From a virus: a DNA stretch of 36,898 nucleotides. Where the stretch lies: positions 1 to 36,898 of IMG/VR virus record IMGVR_UViG_3300032116_000628; one strand, given 5' to 3'. Below, piece after piece: positions 1-8,103 of this stretch; the first letter of the stretch is position 1; every line of letters starts with the position of its first letter. A program made the translations under genes and the position numbers. The notes below the pieces were generated by a model, which did not search any database, was not told the origin of the DNA, and saw only the letters and a list, made by a program, of their open reading frames with translations.

Positions 1-251
1 TCAGTTTCTGTAGTGATTTCTCCCTTAACTACAAGAGTTCCTTCTTCAACAGTTACTTTAACATCATCTTTAGTGAAGCCAGCAACTGCTACAGACAACT
101 TATAGGTATCTTCATCTACCTTAATTAAATCATAAGGTGGATAAGATTGACGTGTTGCAGTATTGTGTACATGATTAAAGCGGTTCAATTCACGATTGAA
201 ACCAATAAAAAAAGGATCTTTGAAAAGATCCAGAGTATACGAACTTACCAT
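1..251 (-). CDS. Hsp20/IbpA-family small heat shock protein (partial, 3' end off window)
   Basis: A reading frame starts at the ATG at 251-249 and stays open to the left edge, so the C-terminus is missing. An AAGGAG ribosome binding site lies just upstream. The N-terminus has the Hsp20-class layout: a segment with DPFFIGFNREL, then YPPYDLIKVDEDTYKLSVAVAGF, i.e. the first strands of the alpha-crystallin domain, followed by DDVKVTVEEGTLVVKGE. Family role: ATP-independent holdase that keeps unfolding proteins soluble. Hsp20 genes are known in T4-like cyanophages, where a role in virion assembly or host stress is assumed. It closes a run of proteostasis-type genes (subtilase, HslV-like). It probably has its own promoter at 308-336. 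Confidence 0.88.
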   Translation of the reverse strand, partial: MVSSYTLDLFKDPFFIGFNRELNRFNHVHNTATRQSYPPYDLIKVDEDTYKLSVAVAGFTKDDVKVTVEEGTLVVKGEITTET

Positions 252-274
252 TTTTTCTCCTTTTCAGCGAGTAA

Positions 275-305
275 GTAGTGCACCCCCATTTGGCAGGTGC
301 ACTAC
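275..305 (-). repeat. Perfect 10-bp inverted repeat (RNA hairpin) in hsp20 leader
   Basis: Arms GTAGTGCACC (275-284) and GGTGCACTAC (296-305) are exact reverse complements around an 11-base loop. The outer arm lies at or just before the predicted transcription start of the promoter at 308-316, so the transcript would carry the hairpin at or near its 5' end, or start inside it. No T-run follows on the minus strand, so it does not look like an intrinsic terminator. Possible roles are a 5' mRNA-stabilising hairpin or an operator; this is inference. Confidence 0.7.
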
Positions 306-307
306 CT

Positions 308-336
308 ATTATATCACTACTTAACTGATACTACAA
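308..336 (-). promoter_or_regulatory. Promoter of hsp20, extended -10 TGATATAAT
   Basis: Minus-strand TGATATAAT at 316-308 is a perfect TGn extended -10. TTGTAG at 336-331 sits exactly 17 bases upstream and matches only the TTG of a -35. It follows directly after the TAG stop of the subtilase gene. Predicted start is near 301, giving a leader of about 50 nt that contains the hairpin. Confidence 0.65.
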
Positions 337-1144
337 GTTCTTTAGATAAAGACTTTATATAATCATAGGTTGCTTGATATGAACCCTGATAGTTCTTTGC
401 CCAAAAGGCTGCAAATGCAGCGGTAGCAGGAGATGTTCCCATAATCCTCTTACCATTTAATTCATATGTTCCAAGAGCATAAAAATCTAACTCTGAAGCG
501 CTATTACTATAGAGTTCAATGTTACCTCTTTCTCCAACTGCACCAACTGAGACTGCCTCAGAAATACAAGATGGGTAGTCAACACGAGTCTTGTCATATC
601 TATTGCCAGCAGCAAATGCTGTGGCTACCCCCATACCCTGCAAAGAAATAATTGTGTTACGAAGATTTTGATTTACTGGACAATAATGACCTTTTCTTGC
701 AAATCTATTTGATCCAAAAGAAACAGATGTTGCAACAATATTAAATTTAGTTTTATTTGAAACAACCCACTTTAATGCTTCATTAATAGTATTGTCAGTA
801 TAGATTCCAAGAGTTCCACTATTTGTCATTGGAACAATGCGAATAAATACAATGTTAACGTCAGGTCCAACAAACTTAGCCACAGATGACATTTGTGTAC
901 CGTGATCAAACATGTTCTTATATAGTTGGCTTGCTGGAAGCGTTGCTGCCCCAGGACCTTCCATGAATGCTTGTTTATTTGGACAACGTTTTTCTTCCAT
1001 TAAGCACACTTCATGAATTACATTGACAACAGAGGTGTCAATTGCTGTATCAATAATTGCTATTGATGGTTTTTGATTTGCTGATACCGCTGGCAAAAAT
1101 GCAGCAGTAAATAGAATTACTAGTAGCCCCACTACCTTTTTCAT
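317..1144 (-). CDS. Secreted subtilisin-like serine protease (S8 family)
   Basis: 275 residues, ATG start with AAGGAG ahead of it. Residues 1-22 form a signal peptide (MKK, hydrophobic core, VSA cleavage site), so the product should be exported by a Gram-positive-type host. The S8 catalytic residues are all present: Asp32 in IIDTAID, His81 in DHGTQM, oxyanion Asn181 in FAAGN and Ser238 in MGTSPATAAF. There is no room for the inhibitory prodomain usual in secreted subtilases, and only a few cysteines (47, 54, 155, 193) that could form disulfides. Substrate is unknown: candidate roles are processing host surface proteins, virion maturation or late lysis. It lies between a small unknown gene and hsp20. 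Confidence 0.88.
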   Translation of the reverse strand: MKKVVGLLVILFTAAFLPAVSANQKPSIAIIDTAIDTSVVNVIHEVCLMEEKRCPNKQAFMEGPGAATLPASQLYKNMFDHGTQMSSVAKFVGPDVNIVFIRIVPMTNSGTLGIYTDNTINEALKWVVSNKTKFNIVATSVSFGSNRFARKGHYCPVNQNLRNTIISLQGMGVATAFAAGNRYDKTRVDYPSCISEAVSVGAVGERGNIELYSNSASELDFYALGTYELNGKRIMGTSPATAAFAAFWAKNYQGSYQATYDYIKSLSKELVVSVK

Positions 1145-1159
1145 TTTTCTCCTTTTATA

Positions 1160-1363
1160 TTAGATAAATATTCTAATAACGTGTTCGCATGGGTCGCCTC
1201 CTGCTTCCCATTCTTCTAACTCTTCTTCACTCATATATTGCATACCACCATCATGTGTGTGGCAATATGGATCACTAACCCAACCTCTTTCAATACCGTT
1301 CTGTAACCAAATGCCAAACTCTTGCTCATCTGGAGACAAATCCTCTTCAGTCATATGATTCAT
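1160..1363 (-). CDS. Small conserved phage-type protein, possibly metal binding; leaderless start
   Basis: 67 residues, acidic N-terminus. The conserved-looking core contains DPYCHTHDGG and GDPCEH, giving two Cys and three His that could hold a metal ion. I recognise this as a small protein type seen in actinobacterial phages, but no function is known. The start at 1363 has no Shine-Dalgarno sequence; instead a near-consensus promoter (1370-1398) places the predicted +1 on the A of this ATG, so it is probably translated from a leaderless mRNA. An in-frame ATG three codons later is the alternative. Confidence 0.75.
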   Translation of the reverse strand: MNHMTEEDLSPDEQEFGIWLQNGIERGWVSDPYCHTHDGGMQYMSEEELEEWEAGGDPCEHVIRIFI

Positions 1364-1369
1364 ATATTT

Positions 1370-1398
1370 AGTATATACCTAAATGCTTAGAATGTCAA
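1370..1398 (-). promoter_or_regulatory. Strong sigma-70-type promoter, predicted leaderless transcript
   Basis: Minus strand TTGACA at 1398-1393, exactly 17 bases, then TATACT at 1375-1370. The -35 lies inside the last codons of the HslV-like gene. Seven bases after the -10 comes the A of the ATG at 1363. An inverted repeat, ATTTAG (1366-1371) and CTAAAT (1379-1384), straddles the -10 and could be an operator. Confidence 0.75.
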
Positions 1399-1912
1399 TA
1401 GGACCTTTACAAGTTGGAGAGTGATTAATAGCAGCCTGAACTGCTGATACTGCTCTTTTTCTTGTATCTTTTGTTTTTTGTGTAGCATAAAGCGATCCTA
1501 AAGCAATATCTCCACCAGACCCCATAGTTAAGTAATCTTGTTCGTATTGTGTTAATGACATATCACCAGCACTGTGTTCATATATTTTTCCACGAATACA
1601 AATTATCATACCAAAATCACCAGATGAAGATGTATCAACCCACCACTCTTCATAAAATTTTCTAAGAGATTTAAGAAATTTACTATACATAAATTTGTCA
1701 ACACTTCCACGACCCTCAAACTGTGGTGGTACAAATAAATGTCTTATTCTATCCCCATCCATAGATCCAGCATATCCAAATAGATATCCTTCTTTTTTCC
1801 AAATTTTTGGACTTGATCCAACACCAATAGAATTATCATCTGAAATACCACGATCTCCAGCCATCCAGATTTTATTGTCTATTGCATCTTTTACAGCGAC
1901 TATACAGGTCAT
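1379..1912 (-). CDS. HslV/proteasome-beta-like N-terminal threonine hydrolase
   Basis: Start chosen at the ATG 1912-1910, because GGGG stands about six bases upstream and because this start puts Thr directly after Met; Met removal then exposes the catalytic Thr1 (MTCIVAVKD). A GTG two codons earlier is possible but would bury the threonine and has poor spacing. HslV landmarks follow in order: AGD (Asp20), SPK (Lys36), GYAGS near 47-50 and GSGG near 131-134. Length 177 residues matches HslV (about 175). Family role: barrel-forming peptidase normally fed by the HslU or proteasomal ATPase. No unfoldase gene is in the window, so it may use a host ATPase, or act without one. It has its own near-consensus promoter. 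Confidence 0.82.
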   Translation of the reverse strand: MTCIVAVKDAIDNKIWMAGDRGISDDNSIGVGSSPKIWKKEGYLFGYAGSMDGDRIRHLFVPPQFEGRGSVDKFMYSKFLKSLRKFYEEWWVDTSSSGDFGMIICIRGKIYEHSAGDMSLTQYEQDYLTMGSGGDIALGSLYATQKTKDTRKRAVSAVQAAINHSPTCKGPIDILSI

Positions 1913-1940
1913 TTTCACCCCAGACTATTGTTGTTCCTTT

Positions 1941-1969
1941 AGTATACCAGGAAGATTTTAATACGTCAA
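1941..1969 (-). promoter_or_regulatory. Promoter of the HslV-like gene
   Basis: Minus strand TTGACG at 1969-1964, 17-base spacer, TATACT at 1946-1941 preceded by TGG, i.e. both a near-consensus -35 and an extended -10. Predicted start is near 1934, giving a leader of about 20 nt. The TGGTATACT element is identical to that of the replication promoter at 19643-19651. Confidence 0.8.
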
Positions 1970-1976
1970 ATAGGCT

Positions 1977-2558
1977 TTATTTAATGTTTTGACCACAAGT
2001 TGGGCAGGTCTTGGGCGCAGAAACAGCCTCAGAAGGCTTAGATTCAGCCTGTGAAGCCCCTTTAAACTTGGGGCGACCAAATCCTACAATAGATACCTGA
2101 ACAGCCTTTTTATTCTTCTTATATGCACGAAGTTTCTTTACAACTTCTCCGCCATTTCGCTGTGATTTCTTTGGGTCCCCTGAAGTGTTGCCTTCAATGC
2201 ACCATACAGTTCCATCTTCATTGTCTTTAATAACAATGCCAACATGAGAAATACGATCTACGCCATCTCCTGGAAAATCAAAATAGGCAATATCTCCTGG
2301 CTCTGGATCACAAATTTGTGCATCATACCAACGACCAGACTTCTTAAATGCTGCTGCTCCACCTGGAGTATAGACAGTGTTTGGAACTTTTACTCCTGCT
2401 TTATCAGCACACCACATAACAAATGATCCACACCATGGCTGAAAATTAGCCTTAGTGAAAGCACCATACTTTGTTTCGTTGTCTTTAGGACCTTCTATAT
2501 AACCAATTTCTTCTTTGGCTATTTCAATTAATTTTGCTGCTGTTCCCATTTCTGACAT
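1977..2558 (-). CDS. Endolysin, CHAP-domain amidase/endopeptidase
   Basis: 193 residues. Residues about 8-155 match a CHAP (NlpC/P60-like) peptidase: catalytic Cys43 in PWCGSF, His105 in ISHVGIV and the polar residue region Glu122/Asn124 in IEGNTS, with the typical PGDIAYFDF strand between. The fold cuts peptidoglycan stem peptides or the amide bond. No signal peptide, so it needs a holin. After a basic linker and a Ser/Ala/Pro-rich stretch, the C-terminus ends in CPTCGQNIK, half of a zinc ribbon, which could dimerise around zinc or act as a small wall-binding tail. It sits last in the lysis cassette, three bases after the two-helix membrane protein gene. Confidence 0.88.
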   Translation of the reverse strand: MSEMGTAAKLIEIAKEEIGYIEGPKDNETKYGAFTKANFQPWCGSFVMWCADKAGVKVPNTVYTPGGAAAFKKSGRWYDAQICDPEPGDIAYFDFPGDGVDRISHVGIVIKDNEDGTVWCIEGNTSGDPKKSQRNGGEVVKKLRAYKKNKKAVQVSIVGFGRPKFKGASQAESKPSEAVSAPKTCPTCGQNIK

Positions 2559-2560
2559 AA

Positions 2561-2971
2561 TTAATCCTTATCCCAATCCTCATCTACTGGTTGCTGTTCT
2601 GGCATTTGACCATCTGGCTTTGCTGCAAGTCTTGCCATAGTTGCATCAATTTCTGCTTCAAGTTTTTTATCTGCTTGAGTATTCTTAGCATCCATTTCTT
2701 TATTGTCAAGTTGTGCTTTCATAATATCTTTAGCACCAGACTGACCAATTAATAATCCTGCCAATGTTCCTGTAATAAATGTTGCAACAGATCCAAGCAC
2801 ATTGAAGAACATCTTATCATTTTCTGATTGTGATCCTACTGGCTGTGTTACAAACAATAGTCCATATAGAATTCCAACCGAAGTTAAAAATAAAATTGAA
2901 CCAAGAGTAATTCCTAGAATAAATTTTAATCTTGCATCTAATTCTTGTGGACTTAATCTTTCTTTACTCAT
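2561..2971 (-). CDS. Two-helix membrane protein, candidate holin
   Basis: 136 residues. Two hydrophobic segments at about 17-42 and 57-77 are separated by a short polar loop; after them comes a charged, coiled-coil-like tail (about 80-120) ending in an acidic tip. Position directly upstream of the endolysin and overlapping the lipoprotein gene supports a lysis role. The long cytoplasmic helix is bigger than in the simplest holins, so a spanin-like or holin-regulator role is also possible. SD-like GGGGTAGG precedes the ATG. Confidence 0.65.
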   Translation of the reverse strand: MSKERLSPQELDARLKFILGITLGSILFLTSVGILYGLLFVTQPVGSQSENDKMFFNVLGSVATFITGTLAGLLIGQSGAKDIMKAQLDNKEMDAKNTQADKKLEAEIDATMARLAAKPDGQMPEQQPVDEDWDKD

Positions 2972-3179
2972 TACCTACCCCTTTTGTTTTTTGATATTTA
3001 TCCCATGTTGTTTTTCCAACTAAATCTTTTGAGCATAGTCCAACAGGTTCACAAATTGGTGGATTACATTCTGCCTTTTCCCAATTTGTTGGATCTTGGC
3101 AAGGATAACGATAATGACCGTCATAGCCACATCCCGTTAATAGTAGTCCTAAAAGGGCTACTCCAATTATCCTGATCAT
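2964..3179 (-). CDS. Cysteine-rich phage lipoprotein
   Basis: Signal peptide II pattern: MIRIIGVALLGLLLTGC, with lipobox LTGC and lipidation at Cys17. The mature part, about 54 residues, carries four more cysteines (YPCQ, AECN, ICEP, LCSK), which probably form disulfides outside the membrane. Similar Cys-rich lipoproteins occur in other aquatic phages with unknown function. Neighbours are lysis genes, so a lysis accessory or superinfection-exclusion role is possible. Start chosen at the ATG 3179-3177, because the -10 at 3187-3195 predicts +1 at 3180/3179, i.e. a leaderless message; the ATG at 3188, three codons earlier, lies within the -10 and would need read-through from AAGGAA. Confidence 0.72.
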   Translation of the reverse strand: MIRIIGVALLGLLLTGCGYDGHYRYPCQDPTNWEKAECNPPICEPVGLCSKDLVGKTTWDKYQKTKGVGNE

Positions 3180-3186
3180 ACCCACC

Positions 3187-3195
3187 ATTATATCA
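3187..3195 (-). promoter_or_regulatory. Extended -10 TGATATAAT before the lipoprotein gene
   Basis: Exact TGATATAAT at 3195-3187, in the gap after the stop codon of the 69-residue membrane protein. No good -35 seen. Predicted +1 falls on or one base before the ATG at 3179. Confidence 0.55.
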
Positions 3196-3196
3196 G

Positions 3197-3406
3197 TTAT
3201 TCCTTTTCTTCACGAAGAGGGATAGTGATTAGCCATAGCACTATTGATACTAGGGTTGCTATACCTACAATTTGCTGTGCGGTACCTGTGAGGGTAAGCC
3301 AAGCAATAAAAAAGCCCAAAATGGTAAATACCTGAGCAATACTTTCAATAATTGCAGCCTTAAACCACTTAAGTAGACTTTTAACTATCTTCTTAATCAT
3401 GTTCAT
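3197..3406 (-). CDS. Small two-helix membrane protein, candidate holin
   Basis: 69 residues: a basic amphipathic N-terminus (MNMIKKIVKSLLKWFK), then two hydrophobic helices at about 20-40 and 44-62, and a short charged tail (REEKE). Size and layout are holin-like (class II). AAGGAGG stands seven bases ahead of the ATG. It lies at the head of the lysis genes, directly after the large surface protein. With a second candidate holin downstream, the pair could be holin and antiholin. No family recognised. Confidence 0.65.
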   Translation of the reverse strand: MNMIKKIVKSLLKWFKAAIIESIAQVFTILGFFIAWLTLTGTAQQIVGIATLVSIVLWLITIPLREEKE

Positions 3407-3407
3407 A

Positions 3408-5084
3408 TTATAACCTCCTTATTGACATAACAGAACTAACTATATTTCCTACTAAAATAACAGGGACCACTACCTCTTGAACTTTTTCTCTTTGGTCATC
3501 TGTCATATCTTTGCCCCATTCAGATGGGCTAAAAACCTTATCAAAATCTATGTTTGTCAATGCTCCTAACGGATCAGATAGAAACTGGTCTGCTTGAGCC
3601 TCAGTAATAGCATCTGCTACCGTATATGGCATTGGGGCATCTGCATTTTGTTCTGCCTTGTCAGCAAATGTTGCAATAGCAATAGCAACTGCTGGGTTAT
3701 CTTTTGCTGATTTTGCAAGAATATCTACTTCATTAGTTTTTACGCCAAGATTTTCTGCTACATCTACTTTTGCTTCTTCTGTCAATGCTAACAATGTATT
3801 TCCAATTGCAGCCATTTGATCTGCTGTAAGTTTAATTATTTTATTATCTTTACTTGTAAGGTTAGCAATAACTCTGCTTAAATCTTCTGTAGTACCTTCA
3901 CCTTGTTGTGGAACAAGATTTATGATAGTATCTTCTTGTGATGGTTCTTCAGAAGGTTCGTCAGGAGTTGGCTCTGGTTCAGGAGTTACATCTAAATCTA
4001 TATCCGTTGGCTGAGGTGAAGGCTCTTGTGAAGGCTCTGGAGTTGGATCAATCTCTTCGTTCTCCACATCTGTGGTATCAGGGCTTGGAGAAGGATTGGA
4101 ATCTTCTGGTTCAGTTTGCTCTGCATTATCAGGGAATCTTGGATCCTCTGGAGTAATAATTTCTGGCTCTATTTCAACATCAGGTTCTGGGGTAGGATCT
4201 GAGTCTGTTGTTGTCTCTGGCTCTGGTGTTGGCTCTACAATAATTTCAGGAGTTGGATCTGGTTCAGCAATTACAGTTGATTGAGCAGCGGCAATAGCAT
4301 TTGCAATTAATGATGCAGTTACTCTAGCCTCTTCTTGAAATGTTATTTCTTCTTGTGTTGGACCAGCAGGTTCTTGTGGTTGTCCTGGAACATATGTTTC
4401 TTCATCTACTGGTGCTGCTGTTAACTCTAAACTTTCTGGATCTTGTACTTCATAAAATCCAGCAGATTCTAATGAAACAACCTGTCCATTATGTAGCCTT
4501 ACGCCTGTTCTTAAACCAGCATAGTTCTCAGCAACACCTGTGGCTGGAAAAGCAGTACTATAAGAAATTGCTAAACCACCAGTATTAGTAATAGCAGCAT
4601 TAATAACAATATTAACTGGTTCTGGCTGACTTTGTAACCATATTGGTCTAAGGTTCATATCTATTTGAAATCCACCCTCACTATAACTAATGATCATGGA
4701 TTCATCAGGTCTACCCCATCCAGCAGTAGATGGATATATAACCCAGTCCATTGAGTATAAAGATATAGAGGGTGTTTGTGGATAATCCCAGTAAGTGTTG
4801 TCTGGGTTTCCAAATGTAATTACTGAGTTCGTTGTTGCATATACAGCACTATACTGTACACCGTCAAAATTAATTGTAGTAGCAATTGGGATCTGATAAG
4901 AAACATCATCTCCTCCACAAGCCTCTATGGTATGAACCGTAGGAACATCATCACCTTCATATGCTGCTGCAAGAGTCTGAGTCTGATATGAGTTTAGGCA
5001 GGCTGCCCATGAACTTTGAGGGAAAGCAAATAAACTTCCAAAAATTATTCCCACCGCTGCAATTATGCGTAGCGATTTGTTTAT
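3408..5084 (-). CDS. Secreted, tail-anchored surface protein with Pro/Glu/Thr-rich linker; probable AUA start
   Basis: The only standard start, GTG 5054, has no ribosome site and cuts the signal peptide in half. Ten codons upstream an ATA codon (5084-5082) stands six bases after AGGAG and yields MNKSLRII, hydrophobic core, SSWA cleavage: a complete signal peptide. From it the protein has about 558 residues: a beta-rich ectodomain (about 30-215, with DGVQYSAVYATTNSVITFG, resembling nidogen-like modules); a long Pro/Glu/Thr/Asp linker (about 230-400) of PTPEPE-type units; a helical domain; and a final hydrophobic helix near 540-555 followed by RRL. It should sit on the host cell surface. Function unknown; receptor masking or adhesion are guesses. 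It has its own promoter. Confidence 0.75.
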   Translation of the reverse strand: MNKSLRIIAAVGIIFGSLFAFPQSSWAACLNSYQTQTLAAAYEGDDVPTVHTIEACGGDDVSYQIPIATTINFDGVQYSAVYATTNSVITFGNPDNTYWDYPQTPSISLYSMDWVIYPSTAGWGRPDESMIISYSEGGFQIDMNLRPIWLQSQPEPVNIVINAAITNTGGLAISYSTAFPATGVAENYAGLRTGVRLHNGQVVSLESAGFYEVQDPESLELTAAPVDEETYVPGQPQEPAGPTQEEITFQEEARVTASLIANAIAAAQSTVIAEPDPTPEIIVEPTPEPETTTDSDPTPEPDVEIEPEIITPEDPRFPDNAEQTEPEDSNPSPSPDTTDVENEEIDPTPEPSQEPSPQPTDIDLDVTPEPEPTPDEPSEEPSQEDTIINLVPQQGEGTTEDLSRVIANLTSKDNKIIKLTADQMAAIGNTLLALTEEAKVDVAENLGVKTNEVDILAKSAKDNPAVAIAIATFADKAEQNADAPMPYTVADAITEAQADQFLSDPLGALTNIDFDKVFSPSEWGKDMTDDQREKVQEVVVPVILVGNIVSSVMSIRRL

Positions 5085-5117
5085 TTTATGCTCCTATTTA
5101 ACTATATAGATAAGCAT

Positions 5118-5126
5118 ATTATATCA
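5118..5126 (-). promoter_or_regulatory. Extended -10 TGATATAAT of the surface-protein/lysis unit
   Basis: Exact TGATATAAT at 5126-5118, directly after the terminator T-run. The -35 position lies in the terminator stem and has no match, so it relies on the extended -10 or an activator. Predicted start near 5111, about 27 nt before the inferred AUA start. Confidence 0.65.
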
Positions 5127-5130
5127 CGAC

Positions 5131-5160
5131 AAAAGAAAAAGGCGCAGATTGCTCTGCGCC
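5131..5160 (-). terminator. Intrinsic terminator after the Ig-like surface protein gene
   Basis: Read on the minus strand: GGCGCAGA, loop GCAA, TCTGCGCC (5160-5141), an 8-bp GC-rich stem with a GNRA tetraloop, followed by TTTTTCTTTT (5140-5131). Classic Rho-independent terminator, 18 bases after the stop codon of the 372-residue gene. It is the only convincing one in the window. Confidence 0.92.
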
Positions 5161-5178
5161 CTAATCTTTAATAGTTAA

Positions 5179-6297
5179 TTACTTAACTAGTTTGACCTTT
5201 GCCTTTGGATTTTTTGCATTCCACTTTTTAGCAAGATCATTGAATGACTTCTTCATTGCAACAAGTGCTGCAGCGTTGTCAGCCTTTACCTTAGCAAGTT
5301 CTGCAGTTGCATCAGCAATAGCCTTATCAGCAGCAACCTTAGCGGTTACAGAGTCAGCATTTGCTTTAGCAAGTTCAGCCTTTACCTTGATTAGTTCTGC
5401 ATCAGCAAGCAACTTTGCATCAGCGAGAGCCTTTGCAGAAGCAGCCTTTTCTGCAGCAAGTGCAGCATTAGCAGCATCACGAGCAGCAGTCATTGATGCA
5501 AGTTCAGTTGCAAGATCACGATTTGCAACTACCTTTGATGCTGTTAGAACTGGAGTAGCAAAACCTGCAATTGCAGACTGTGCTGTAACAGAGGCACCAA
5601 GACCAAAAATAGCAACAGCATTGCCAGAAGCAGCCATTGTTACCTTAAAGTCAGCGGTTCCAAAGTTTGTTAGTCCAGATCCAGTTGTTGCAGTTACTGT
5701 GTCAAGTGTTCCGTTAGAAACAGTTGCATTAAGAGCAACGCCAGTTACCTTGTTACCAAATACGTCAGTAGTTGTAACTGTATAAGTCTTTTGTGTTCCT
5801 GATGCAGCAGTGTCATCTCCAGCAACAGAAACTGTATTTACGTTACCTGCAGTACCCTGAACATAATATGTTGTGGTTGTACCCTGGTTTGTAATTACAA
5901 CAGTACCAACAGCAATAGTCTTTGTAAAGACAAAGAATGTTGCAGTTGTGCCTGTACCAGTTGCAATGGTTGCAGAAGCAGATCCAGCAGATGCTGTTAC
6001 TGGTGCAGCAGATGTAGCAGTTGCAAGAATGATTGAAGCATTTGTTGCTGAAACTGTAACTGCTGTTCCAGTATCTACTGTGGCAACAAACTTAAGAGCG
6101 TCTGTTGCATCTACAGAGTTATCTGAAGGAACTGGAAGTGCTACGGCTGCTGTTGTTGACAAACCATTGTTTGTCGGAGCAGAACCATTAACCGTGATTG
6201 CCACTGTCATTGGGGCAGCACTTGCAGGTGTTGCGACAATTGTGCTCAATGACAGGGCTGCAACCACGCCAAGAGCGATCTTCTTAAATGAATTCAT
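5179..6297 (-). CDS. Secreted host-like surface protein: Ig-like domains plus Ala-rich coiled coil
   Basis: 372 residues. Signal peptide MNSFKKIALGVVAALSLS...ASA (1-27) with AGGAG ahead of the ATG. Thr/Ala/Val-rich beta region (about 28-250) contains a Big_1/invasin-like stretch, DVFGNKVTGVALNATVSNG (about 175-195). Then an Ala/Lys heptad-rich coiled coil (about 265-345) and a basic tail with KKWNAKNPKAKVKLVK. No LPXTG or C-terminal membrane helix. The gene is visibly richer in G+C than its neighbours and its product resembles secreted proteins of small freshwater actinobacteria, which suggests acquisition from a host. It ends in a strong terminator, so it forms a separately tuned transcript end. 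Role unknown: surface mimicry, receptor replacement or virion decoration are all possible. Confidence 0.75.
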   Translation of the reverse strand: MNSFKKIALGVVAALSLSTIVATPASAAPMTVAITVNGSAPTNNGLSTTAAVALPVPSDNSVDATDALKFVATVDTGTAVTVSATNASIILATATSAAPVTASAGSASATIATGTGTTATFFVFTKTIAVGTVVITNQGTTTTYYVQGTAGNVNTVSVAGDDTAASGTQKTYTVTTTDVFGNKVTGVALNATVSNGTLDTVTATTGSGLTNFGTADFKVTMAASGNAVAIFGLGASVTAQSAIAGFATPVLTASKVVANRDLATELASMTAARDAANAALAAEKAASAKALADAKLLADAELIKVKAELAKANADSVTAKVAADKAIADATAELAKVKADNAAALVAMKKSFNDLAKKWNAKNPKAKVKLVK

Positions 6298-6321
6298 TTT
6301 TCTCCTCTATAATTCATCGTT

Positions 6322-8103
6322 TTATATTAGTTTGTATTCATTAAGGAAATCTTGAACATCGTCAGGAATTTCCCTAGTATCTAATTCTACCATAGCCCTC
6401 TGCTTTTCTGCAAGTCGGGTGGCAGAACTCCAAGTATGAACATCAATCTCTAGATTAGAGTCCCTACTTGTGTGGGAAATTGCTCCGAATACCGCCCCAC
6501 AAACAGCATCCGCTAAGTCCTTAGATTTCTTGCGTGGATGATCTACACGATTATTTTTCATAATCTTTAGTTCACCCATCTCTTCAAGAAGCAAAGGAAT
6601 CATAGGCATTGCGATTCTCTCTTCATATATCATCATAGCCAAATCCTCATAATGTTTCTTGGCTACTGAAACGGTATCAGTCCTCATTCCTACCGCCTTT
6701 AATTCCTGTTGAATATCAAAGGATTGCCAACGGTCAAACGAAACCATACCAATATTAAACCCTTCTCTGCGAAGATTAATAATCCACTTTTTTACCTCAG
6801 ATAGGTCAACTGGACCTTCTACCTTTGGCTCCCACCATGCAACGGCATCAACAACAACTATTGGGGCAACCTGTTGATAATCTTTAATTACCTGAATGTT
6901 TACCCATCGTTCAACATGTGCAATAGCAACTGCACATTTGTCGTGCCTTTGTGCAAGGTCAGCATGAACATAATATACTTTATCAGGGTCTGGCTTAAAA
7001 GTCAAATCAAACCTTCTGTGAGAATCTATAGGATTTCTTAATGTCATACACTTTTCTAATTTTTCTTTTTGTTTAAAAAATGCATCTGATGAATAGGTTG
7101 GGGTACAAAGAAAACGCATCATGGCATCTCCTAAGTCTGTTAAAAATGCAATCTTAAAATCATCAATCTTTCTTGTAGGGTTTACTTCCCATGTAGGTCT
7201 TTTAAGTGCAAACATTCTGGGGTATTTATATGATTTAATATGGTCTTCTTCCCAGACTATTTCAAATTCATTATCTGGTCCTTCTGGTAATTCTTCGTTA
7301 ATAATAAACTTGTGTCGTCTTTCTATTACTTCTTTTTCCATAATTACATCTTCATACCGTTTTGAAATGAAGTCACCGTTATAGCGGGGGAATGATAGAA
7401 GAACTACTTTTCCAAGATCTGGGAAACGAGAGTCTACCGTACCTCTAAATGCCTTATATATATTGTCAGCAGTTTTACCTTGATCATTTCCTGTTCCTAC
7501 CTCTGTAGCAAAACCAGAAATCTCATCAAGTACCGCCATAAATAAGTTAAGACCCTCATGTGATTCACGCTCAGAGTGTCCTGAATAAACTGTAATTGAT
7601 TTATTAAAACCAATAGAGTTTACCTTTGGATCATATTTTCCTGCAAACCACGGAGACTTTTCAATCTTTGTCTTAAAACCTTTAAAAAAAACATTTTTAG
7701 CCTGCTCTGCGTTAATAGCAACGTTGATAATATCAATAGCATCACCAGAAGGTTTGCCATAATATCTTGCAGGATCTTTTAAGCATAGTAGTTTATATAC
7801 AACATAAGCACAGGCAACAGTAGAAACAAAGTCTTTACCGCTACCTTTTCCAAGTTGAAGAATAATTTCATTCTTAGTATATTTAGCAAAATGCTTATCA
7901 CCTTGCTCAGTTCCCATTAATATATGTAAATCTTCTTTACGATAAATTTGACTCATTGCTTCAACAATGTCATACTGAATTGCAGACAGGGGTGGCTGAC
8001 CTAAAAAATCTGGAGATTCAACAAATGTTTTTACGTCTACAGGATTTTCATCAAACTGGTTATCTTGAAGCGCTTCAAAAAAATCATTGAACTTGGTGGA
8101 CAA
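6322..8103 (-). CDS. Terminase large subunit (TerL)
   Basis: 593 residues, DNA-packaging ATPase and nuclease. ATPase: Walker A-like GKGSGKD near 84-92 (Asp where Ser/Thr is usual) and Walker B MAVLDE near 190. RNase H-like nuclease: HADLAQRHD near 378, SFDRW near 455 and DLADAV near 530, giving the acidic metal ligands. It starts at TTG 8103, inside the end of terS; an in-frame stop lies three codons upstream and no ATG follows early. Adjacent TerS confirms the pair. Packaging mode cannot be told from sequence alone. Confidence 0.93.
   Translation of the reverse strand: MSTKFNDFFEALQDNQFDENPVDVKTFVESPDFLGQPPLSAIQYDIVEAMSQIYRKEDLHILMGTEQGDKHFAKYTKNEIILQLGKGSGKDFVSTVACAYVVYKLLCLKDPARYYGKPSGDAIDIINVAINAEQAKNVFFKGFKTKIEKSPWFAGKYDPKVNSIGFNKSITVYSGHSERESHEGLNLFMAVLDEISGFATEVGTGNDQGKTADNIYKAFRGTVDSRFPDLGKVVLLSFPRYNGDFISKRYEDVIMEKEVIERRHKFIINEELPEGPDNEFEIVWEEDHIKSYKYPRMFALKRPTWEVNPTRKIDDFKIAFLTDLGDAMMRFLCTPTYSSDAFFKQKEKLEKCMTLRNPIDSHRRFDLTFKPDPDKVYYVHADLAQRHDKCAVAIAHVERWVNIQVIKDYQQVAPIVVVDAVAWWEPKVEGPVDLSEVKKWIINLRREGFNIGMVSFDRWQSFDIQQELKAVGMRTDTVSVAKKHYEDLAMMIYEERIAMPMIPLLLEEMGELKIMKNNRVDHPRKKSKDLADAVCGAVFGAISHTSRDSNLEIDVHTWSSATRLAEKQRAMVELDTREIPDDVQDFLNEYKLI

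Follow-up and report, generated by a model that had tools for sequence, protein, structure and literature searches.

A phage lineage that very likely infects actinobacteria carries, beside a core gene for a proteasome-like hydrolase, a gene slot in which predicted secreted proteases of unrelated types have been exchanged for one another. The locus was found in an IMG/VR fragment of 36,898 bases (the window, i.e. the whole stretch of DNA analysed). Its minus strand exhibits, in this order, the terminase large subunit, further genes, three small membrane/lipoprotein-like genes, a CHAP endolysin, an HslV-like hydrolase, a conserved protein (w67), a subtilase and an Hsp20 truncated by the contig end (Table 1). 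The hydrolase, w67 and subtilase genes are separated by 15 nt. The initial annotation had described hydrolase, subtilase and Hsp20 as one proteostasis cluster at the end of the late region. That end is simply where the contig stops: the terminase and lysis genes are found a short way upstream, and the sequence of relatives runs on well beyond Hsp20. The adjacency of the three genes is real and recurs in many relatives, except that w67, between hydrolase and subtilase, had been overlooked. We see about an even chance that the locus combines three neighbouring, independently evolving functions: a cytoplasmic self-compartmentalised hydrolase, a separately promoted exoprotease slot and a universal Hsp20.

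Table 1. Features of the locus in the window, with the evidence for each.
Feature	Position	Strand	Evidence
Hsp20 small heat-shock protein, truncated by the contig end	3..251	-	PF00011, PHROG 432
Secreted S8 subtilase without prodomain, filling the variable protease slot	317..1144	-	PF00082, conserved triad
w67, 67-aa conserved protein with CxTHDG ... GGDPC motifs	1160..1363	-	Alignment; position after the HslV-like gene
P2 promoter (predicted), TTGACA-N17-TATACT, overlapping the 3' end of the HslV-like gene	1370..1398	-	Conservation
HslV/BPH-type proteasome-like Ntn hydrolase, 177 aa, Met-Thr start	1379..1912	-	PHROG 1040, AlphaFold2, Foldseek
P1 promoter (predicted), TTGACG-N17-TATACT with TG extension, upstream of the HslV-like gene	1941..1969	-	Conservation
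CHAP-domain endolysin, directly upstream of the HslV-like gene	1977..2558	-	PF05257, PHROG 21825; syntenic in relatives
Three small membrane/lipoprotein-like genes (probably the rest of the lysis cassette)	2561..3406	-	ORFs 2561-2971, 2964-3188, 3197-3406; syntenic in relatives
Terminase large subunit	6322..8103	-	PHROG 9 (E-value = 1.8e-15)

The HslV-like protein is matched by PHROG 1040 ("peptidase HslV family", E-value = 2.7e-19) and has no match in the Pfam profile search. Its gene begins with ATG at position 1912, followed by ACC (Thr); where two start codons are possible, relatives conserve the one directly before the threonine. Equivalents of Thr1 (after Met removal), Asp17, Lys33 and the oxyanion Gly47 are found as T2, D20, K36 and an FGYAG stretch, and the GSGG loop is present, so that the motifs first read from the sequence (Thr after Met, Asp/Lys pair, GSGG loop) are all confirmed. 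T2 and K36 are invariant across all full-length relatives aligned, and Met-Thr, K36 and G46 are retained in near and distant relatives (alignments A1, A2 and A4). The residue at D20 is aspartate in most relatives and glutamate in some, among them L058 and several with 42-47% identity. The GSG loop is retained except for GAG in L063/L064 and GCG in L084/L087. Glutamate at the catalytic aspartate, with Thr and Lys retained, is observed in L058, L119, L132, L141, L144, L146, L179, L181 and L194. An AlphaFold2 model (pLDDT 92.7) exhibits four predicted helices (53-59, 71-89, 134-143 and 150-164). Its best PDB matches by Foldseek are BPH (5ovs/5ovt; E-value about 1e-11 to 2e-11, TM 0.77-0.78), then HslV, at only about 20% identity to these solved relatives. 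Both the profile and the model place the protein within, not outside, the proteasome beta-like Ntn fold, which is its predicted structure.

The hydrolase was found at 80 loci with 64-100% identity, and 155 phage records contain a relative. Its dN/dS values (0.03-0.18, NG86) clearly indicate purifying selection. In a survey where relatives were chosen via the terminase large subunit and not via the hydrolase, the hydrolase follows the terminase and lysis genes in all 15 evaluable relatives, with identity as low as 42% in some, which makes it a core gene of this phage lineage. Candidates for a bacterial source of the gene were rejected: one genome scan gave a single distant Nitratireductor relative (27%), and plasmids yielded only distant rhizobial, Paraburkholderia and Bacillus proteins. 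The host of the lineage is very likely an actinobacterium, as indicated by sequence comparison: WhiB is present in 15/15 relatives (among the controls, in Corynebacterium only), the DNA polymerase shares 54% identity with that of Streptomyces Stanwilliamsviridae over its full length, and the tape measure is similar to those of Streptomyces and Gordonia phages. The low GC content (35-38%) allows a guess at a Nanopelagicales host.

The hydrolase gene as such is not new. Phage proteasome homologs (PPH, AAH and CPH) have been described, with no AAA+ partner identified and no known function (Fuchs, Alva, Lupas 2021, PMC8665760). The present protein resembles them in its Thr-nucleophile proteasome-like fold, the lack of a propeptide, its occurrence in Caudoviricetes and the lack of an identified AAA+ partner (PMC8665760). 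It falls outside the PPH group, of which the members are about 140 aa long and lack helix H2, whereas our hydrolase is 177 aa long with a predicted helix at 71-89. The same study reported no actinobacteria-specific phage with AAH, in contrast to the very probable host of the present lineage. BPH (5ovs, 5ovt, 5ovu), the best structural match despite the low identity, is of the two-ring type with no known unfoldase (PMC8665760). HslV (ClpQ) of HslUV shares with the hydrolase the fold, the Thr1/Asp/Lys pattern and the GSG loop, again at about 20% identity; however, HslUV has the AAA+ partner HslU, of which no match is found in the 15 large relatives of the window phage. The direct profile match, PHROG 1040, comes from T5-like and other phages. 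In Salmonella phage S114 the PHROG 1040 gene lies among nucleotide-metabolism genes, not beside an endolysin and a protease slot.

The lack of an HslU-type ATPase, noted at the outset for the window, extends to its large relatives. AAA_2 (PF07724; ClpX/HslU) gave no match in the 15 relatives of 62-123 kb, the search control being positive in 14/14 genomes, and PF00004 gave sub-threshold P-loop matches only, of about 36 residues. A phage-encoded unfoldase was rejected on these grounds. The hydrolase probably loses its Met, exposes the threonine and assembles as a closed ring in the cytoplasm. Since the phage appears to encode no HslU/ClpX-type unfoldase, the ring probably either cleaves loosely folded proteins of the host or the phage unaided or recruits a host ATPase; a host HslU or other unfoldase may be its partner, the window genome itself being a fragment. 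Many actinobacteria possess a true 20S proteasome. This, together with the common fold and the missing phage ATPase, would suit a hydrolase that inserts into or competes with the host proteasome or HslV, altering host turnover in a dominant-negative or retargeting manner. However, the protein is only about 20% identical to the solved relatives, and a proteasome in this particular host is a supposition; we regard such interference as unlikely.

Two putative promoters accompany the hydrolase gene. Of 49 distinct upstream regions, 44 contain a P1-type element (TTGACN-N17-TATACT with a TG extension) about 35 nt before the gene, and in 42 of them its spacer is 17 bp long. Among four relatives with a gene inserted there, three have P1 beyond the insert, about 800-850 nt upstream of the hydrolase. 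An extra segment of about 700-800 bp between the CHAP endolysin and the hydrolase is observed in L011, L013, L016 and L034. P2 (TTGACA-N17-TATACT) overlaps the stop codon region of the hydrolase gene in 49 of 55 distinct regions, always with a 17-bp spacer, and is retained where w67 is missing (L023, G002 and G011). Its conservation is partly a coding effect, as the first hexamer encodes conserved residues (PIDIL); TATACT lies outside the gene. Within positions 1-6500 of the window, P2 is the best promoter match and P1 is among the three that come next. Neither the CHAP endolysin (0/47) nor Hsp20 (0/20) has such a site in front of it, and no strong promoter was found ahead of the three small lysis-type genes. 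Judged from their consensus, P1 and P2 would be active as conserved sigma-70-type promoters. With P1 and P2 before hydrolase and slot and none before the endolysin, hydrolase and slot would be promoted, and presumably timed, separately from the lysis genes. A strong hairpin with a T-run (5139-5162), between the genes at 5179-6297 and 3408-5054, is probably a terminator ahead of the lysis region.

Directly after the hydrolase gene, w67 is found in 61 of 69 relatives. This order is kept almost always, even where the HslV-like protein is only 42% identical. No Pfam or PHROG family passes for w67, and neither w67 nor the subtilase has a match among annotated phages. It is possible that w67 is a partner protein.

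The subtilase belongs to family S8 (PF00082, E-value = 2.7e-12), with the Asp-His-Ser triad (D32/H81/S238) and the oxyanion Asn in its PF00082 domain. All 28 distinct relatives retain D32, H81 and N181; S238 is retained in the 27 that extend to that region, one copy being truncated. About 10 residues separate the end of the subtilase's signal peptide from the catalytic Asp, and Pfam gives no match to an inhibitor I9 prodomain, which extracellular subtilisins have at the N-terminus. The initial description of this protein, with an intact triad and signal peptide and no prodomain, thus holds. Its dN/dS values are 0.06-0.33.

The swapped-protease slot, which the subtilase fills in the window, is the interesting part of the locus. 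Among 74 relatives it contains an S8 subtilase in 32, an HExxH-type protein in 14, a trypsin-like protein in 8 and a non-protease in 20; the slot protease is therefore dispensable at least sometimes. The trypsin-like occupants exhibit TAAHC and GDSGSP-type motifs and match Pfam trypsin. The HExxH-type proteins are probably metallopeptidases: HExxH is present in 10/12 distinct sequences and HExxxH in 2/12, and a Pfam M66 match lies just below the cut-off. The only structural matches of a model of such a protein (pLDDT 61) were to metzincins and fell short of significance (fragilysin, probability up to 0.97, E-value = 0.015), and a profile search in PDB gave no match. By a simple rule, not a trained predictor, signal-peptide-like N-termini occur in 28/28 S8, 5/5 S1 and 7/12 metallo-type occupants, and in 0/10 of the 221-aa and carbamoyltransferase occupants. 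Pfam matches to S8 and trypsin are confined to the slot across the 15 large relatives.

On a tree of HslV-like and CHAP sequences the four slot states require at least 17 changes; counting its starred branches only, S8 needs at least 7, the metallo type at least 5 and S1 at least 3. These counts are rough, given recombination and near-copies. Many of the contigs are fragments. S8 and metallo types interchange even within supported clades (L075 with L073/L074; L040/L045 with L029/L031/L035). The slot region forms a hypervariable island, bounded by w67 on one side and on the other by small genes in a conserved block. In L005, L010, L050, L067, L079-L081 and L007-type loci it carries a NodU-type carbamoyltransferase, a GlcNAc-type glycosyltransferase, DUF6065 and small secreted proteins. 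The slot proteins share catalytic motifs and signal peptides with secreted S8 and chymotrypsin-like S1 proteases, and perhaps with M66/metzincin-like ones. Unlike the known secreted proteases, the types are interchangeable at one phage locus, and the S8 form is very short with no prodomain match. None of the papers covered by our literature search describes an exchange of secreted proteases in phages.

The window Hsp20 exhibits a partial alpha-crystallin domain (PF00011, E-value = 1.2e-7; also PHROG 432), and the full domain is present in 15/15 large relatives. It lies at most 2 kb from the hydrolase in 4 of these 15 and 11-29 kb away in the other 11; near-copy contigs (G004/G013 and G002/G012) lower the number of independent cases. 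Gene maps place it directly after the subtilase in the window's clade and elsewhere behind a long block of other genes. In G003 (L036) it is on the strand opposite to the hydrolase, unlike in the other 14 large relatives, by inversion or assembly error. Inside the 5' part of the window's Hsp20 coding sequence, a terminator-like hairpin with a T run (214-231, minus strand) is possibly an attenuator, possibly chance.

Subtilase and Hsp20 are both near the hydrolase in 19 of 69 relatives; among near relatives in the terminase-anchored survey the subtilase is near it in 12/13 and Hsp20 in 9/12. The three genes are thus neighbours in part of the lineage, and their adjacency in the window's own clade, with hydrolase, w67 and subtilase only 15 nt apart, speaks for the proposal of the initial annotation that the three products process capsid or surface proteins together. 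We consider such a joint role very improbable. The HslV-like protein, unlike the subtilase, lacks a signal peptide, which would put the two to work in different compartments; Hsp20 is distant in 11 of the 15 large relatives, in many relatives an unrelated protease or none stands in place of the subtilase, and hydrolase and slot appear separately promoted. The differences in compartment and promoter, and the independent movement of the genes, led us to reject a joint proteostasis module. An exported protease is unlikely to process capsids, and the subtilase was rejected as a capsid maturation protease, being predicted to be exported and fitting no prohead protease family in these searches. Hsp20 would be a universal phage chaperone gene that came to adjoin the slot in this clade.

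From P2 the phage would express w67 followed, in most cases, by an exported protease, which is a subtilase here and elsewhere resembles either an HExxH metallopeptidase or trypsin. That unrelated catalytic folds have repeatedly replaced one another suggests selection for generic proteolysis outside the membrane, not for one substrate. Such a need for bulk proteolysis would also suit an auxiliary metabolic gene, the exported protease supplying the infected cell with peptides from dissolved protein. We find this quite unlikely: the products would diffuse off in dilute water, no peptide transporter is seen beside the slot, and no report of it was found in the literature search. Alternatively, the exported protease could be the last part of the lysis cassette, digesting envelope proteins for endolysin action and progeny escape. 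It has a signal peptide, and in most syntenic relatives the slot is about 1 kb or less from the CHAP endolysin and the small membrane/lipoprotein genes. However, two strong conserved promoter matches intervene, which the lysis genes lack (0/47 for CHAP), as do the hydrolase gene, w67 and sometimes another gene; a role in lysis seems somewhat unlikely. Most likely, the exported protease would shave surface proteins of the infected cell, blocking adsorption of rivals or loosening the envelope before lysis, a reading that we prefer because the activity, not the enzyme, is conserved. We tentatively propose, as one possibility, that in this actinobacterial phage lineage the separately promoted exported-protease locus, with its swapped S8, S1 and metallo types beside a core proteasome-like ring, is a surface-shaving system directed at competing phages or at the envelope of the host.

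Since their description in 2021, phage proteasome homologs have lacked an informative gene context. This lineage supplies one: a core hydrolase with its own putative promoter, coupled to a slot of unrelated secreted proteases. The exchange of one enzyme for unrelated ones that carry out the same chemistry strongly indicates that the activity itself is under selection, and makes extracellular proteolysis by the infected cell a testable phage function. Exported proteases are worth seeking in the accessory slots of other phages.
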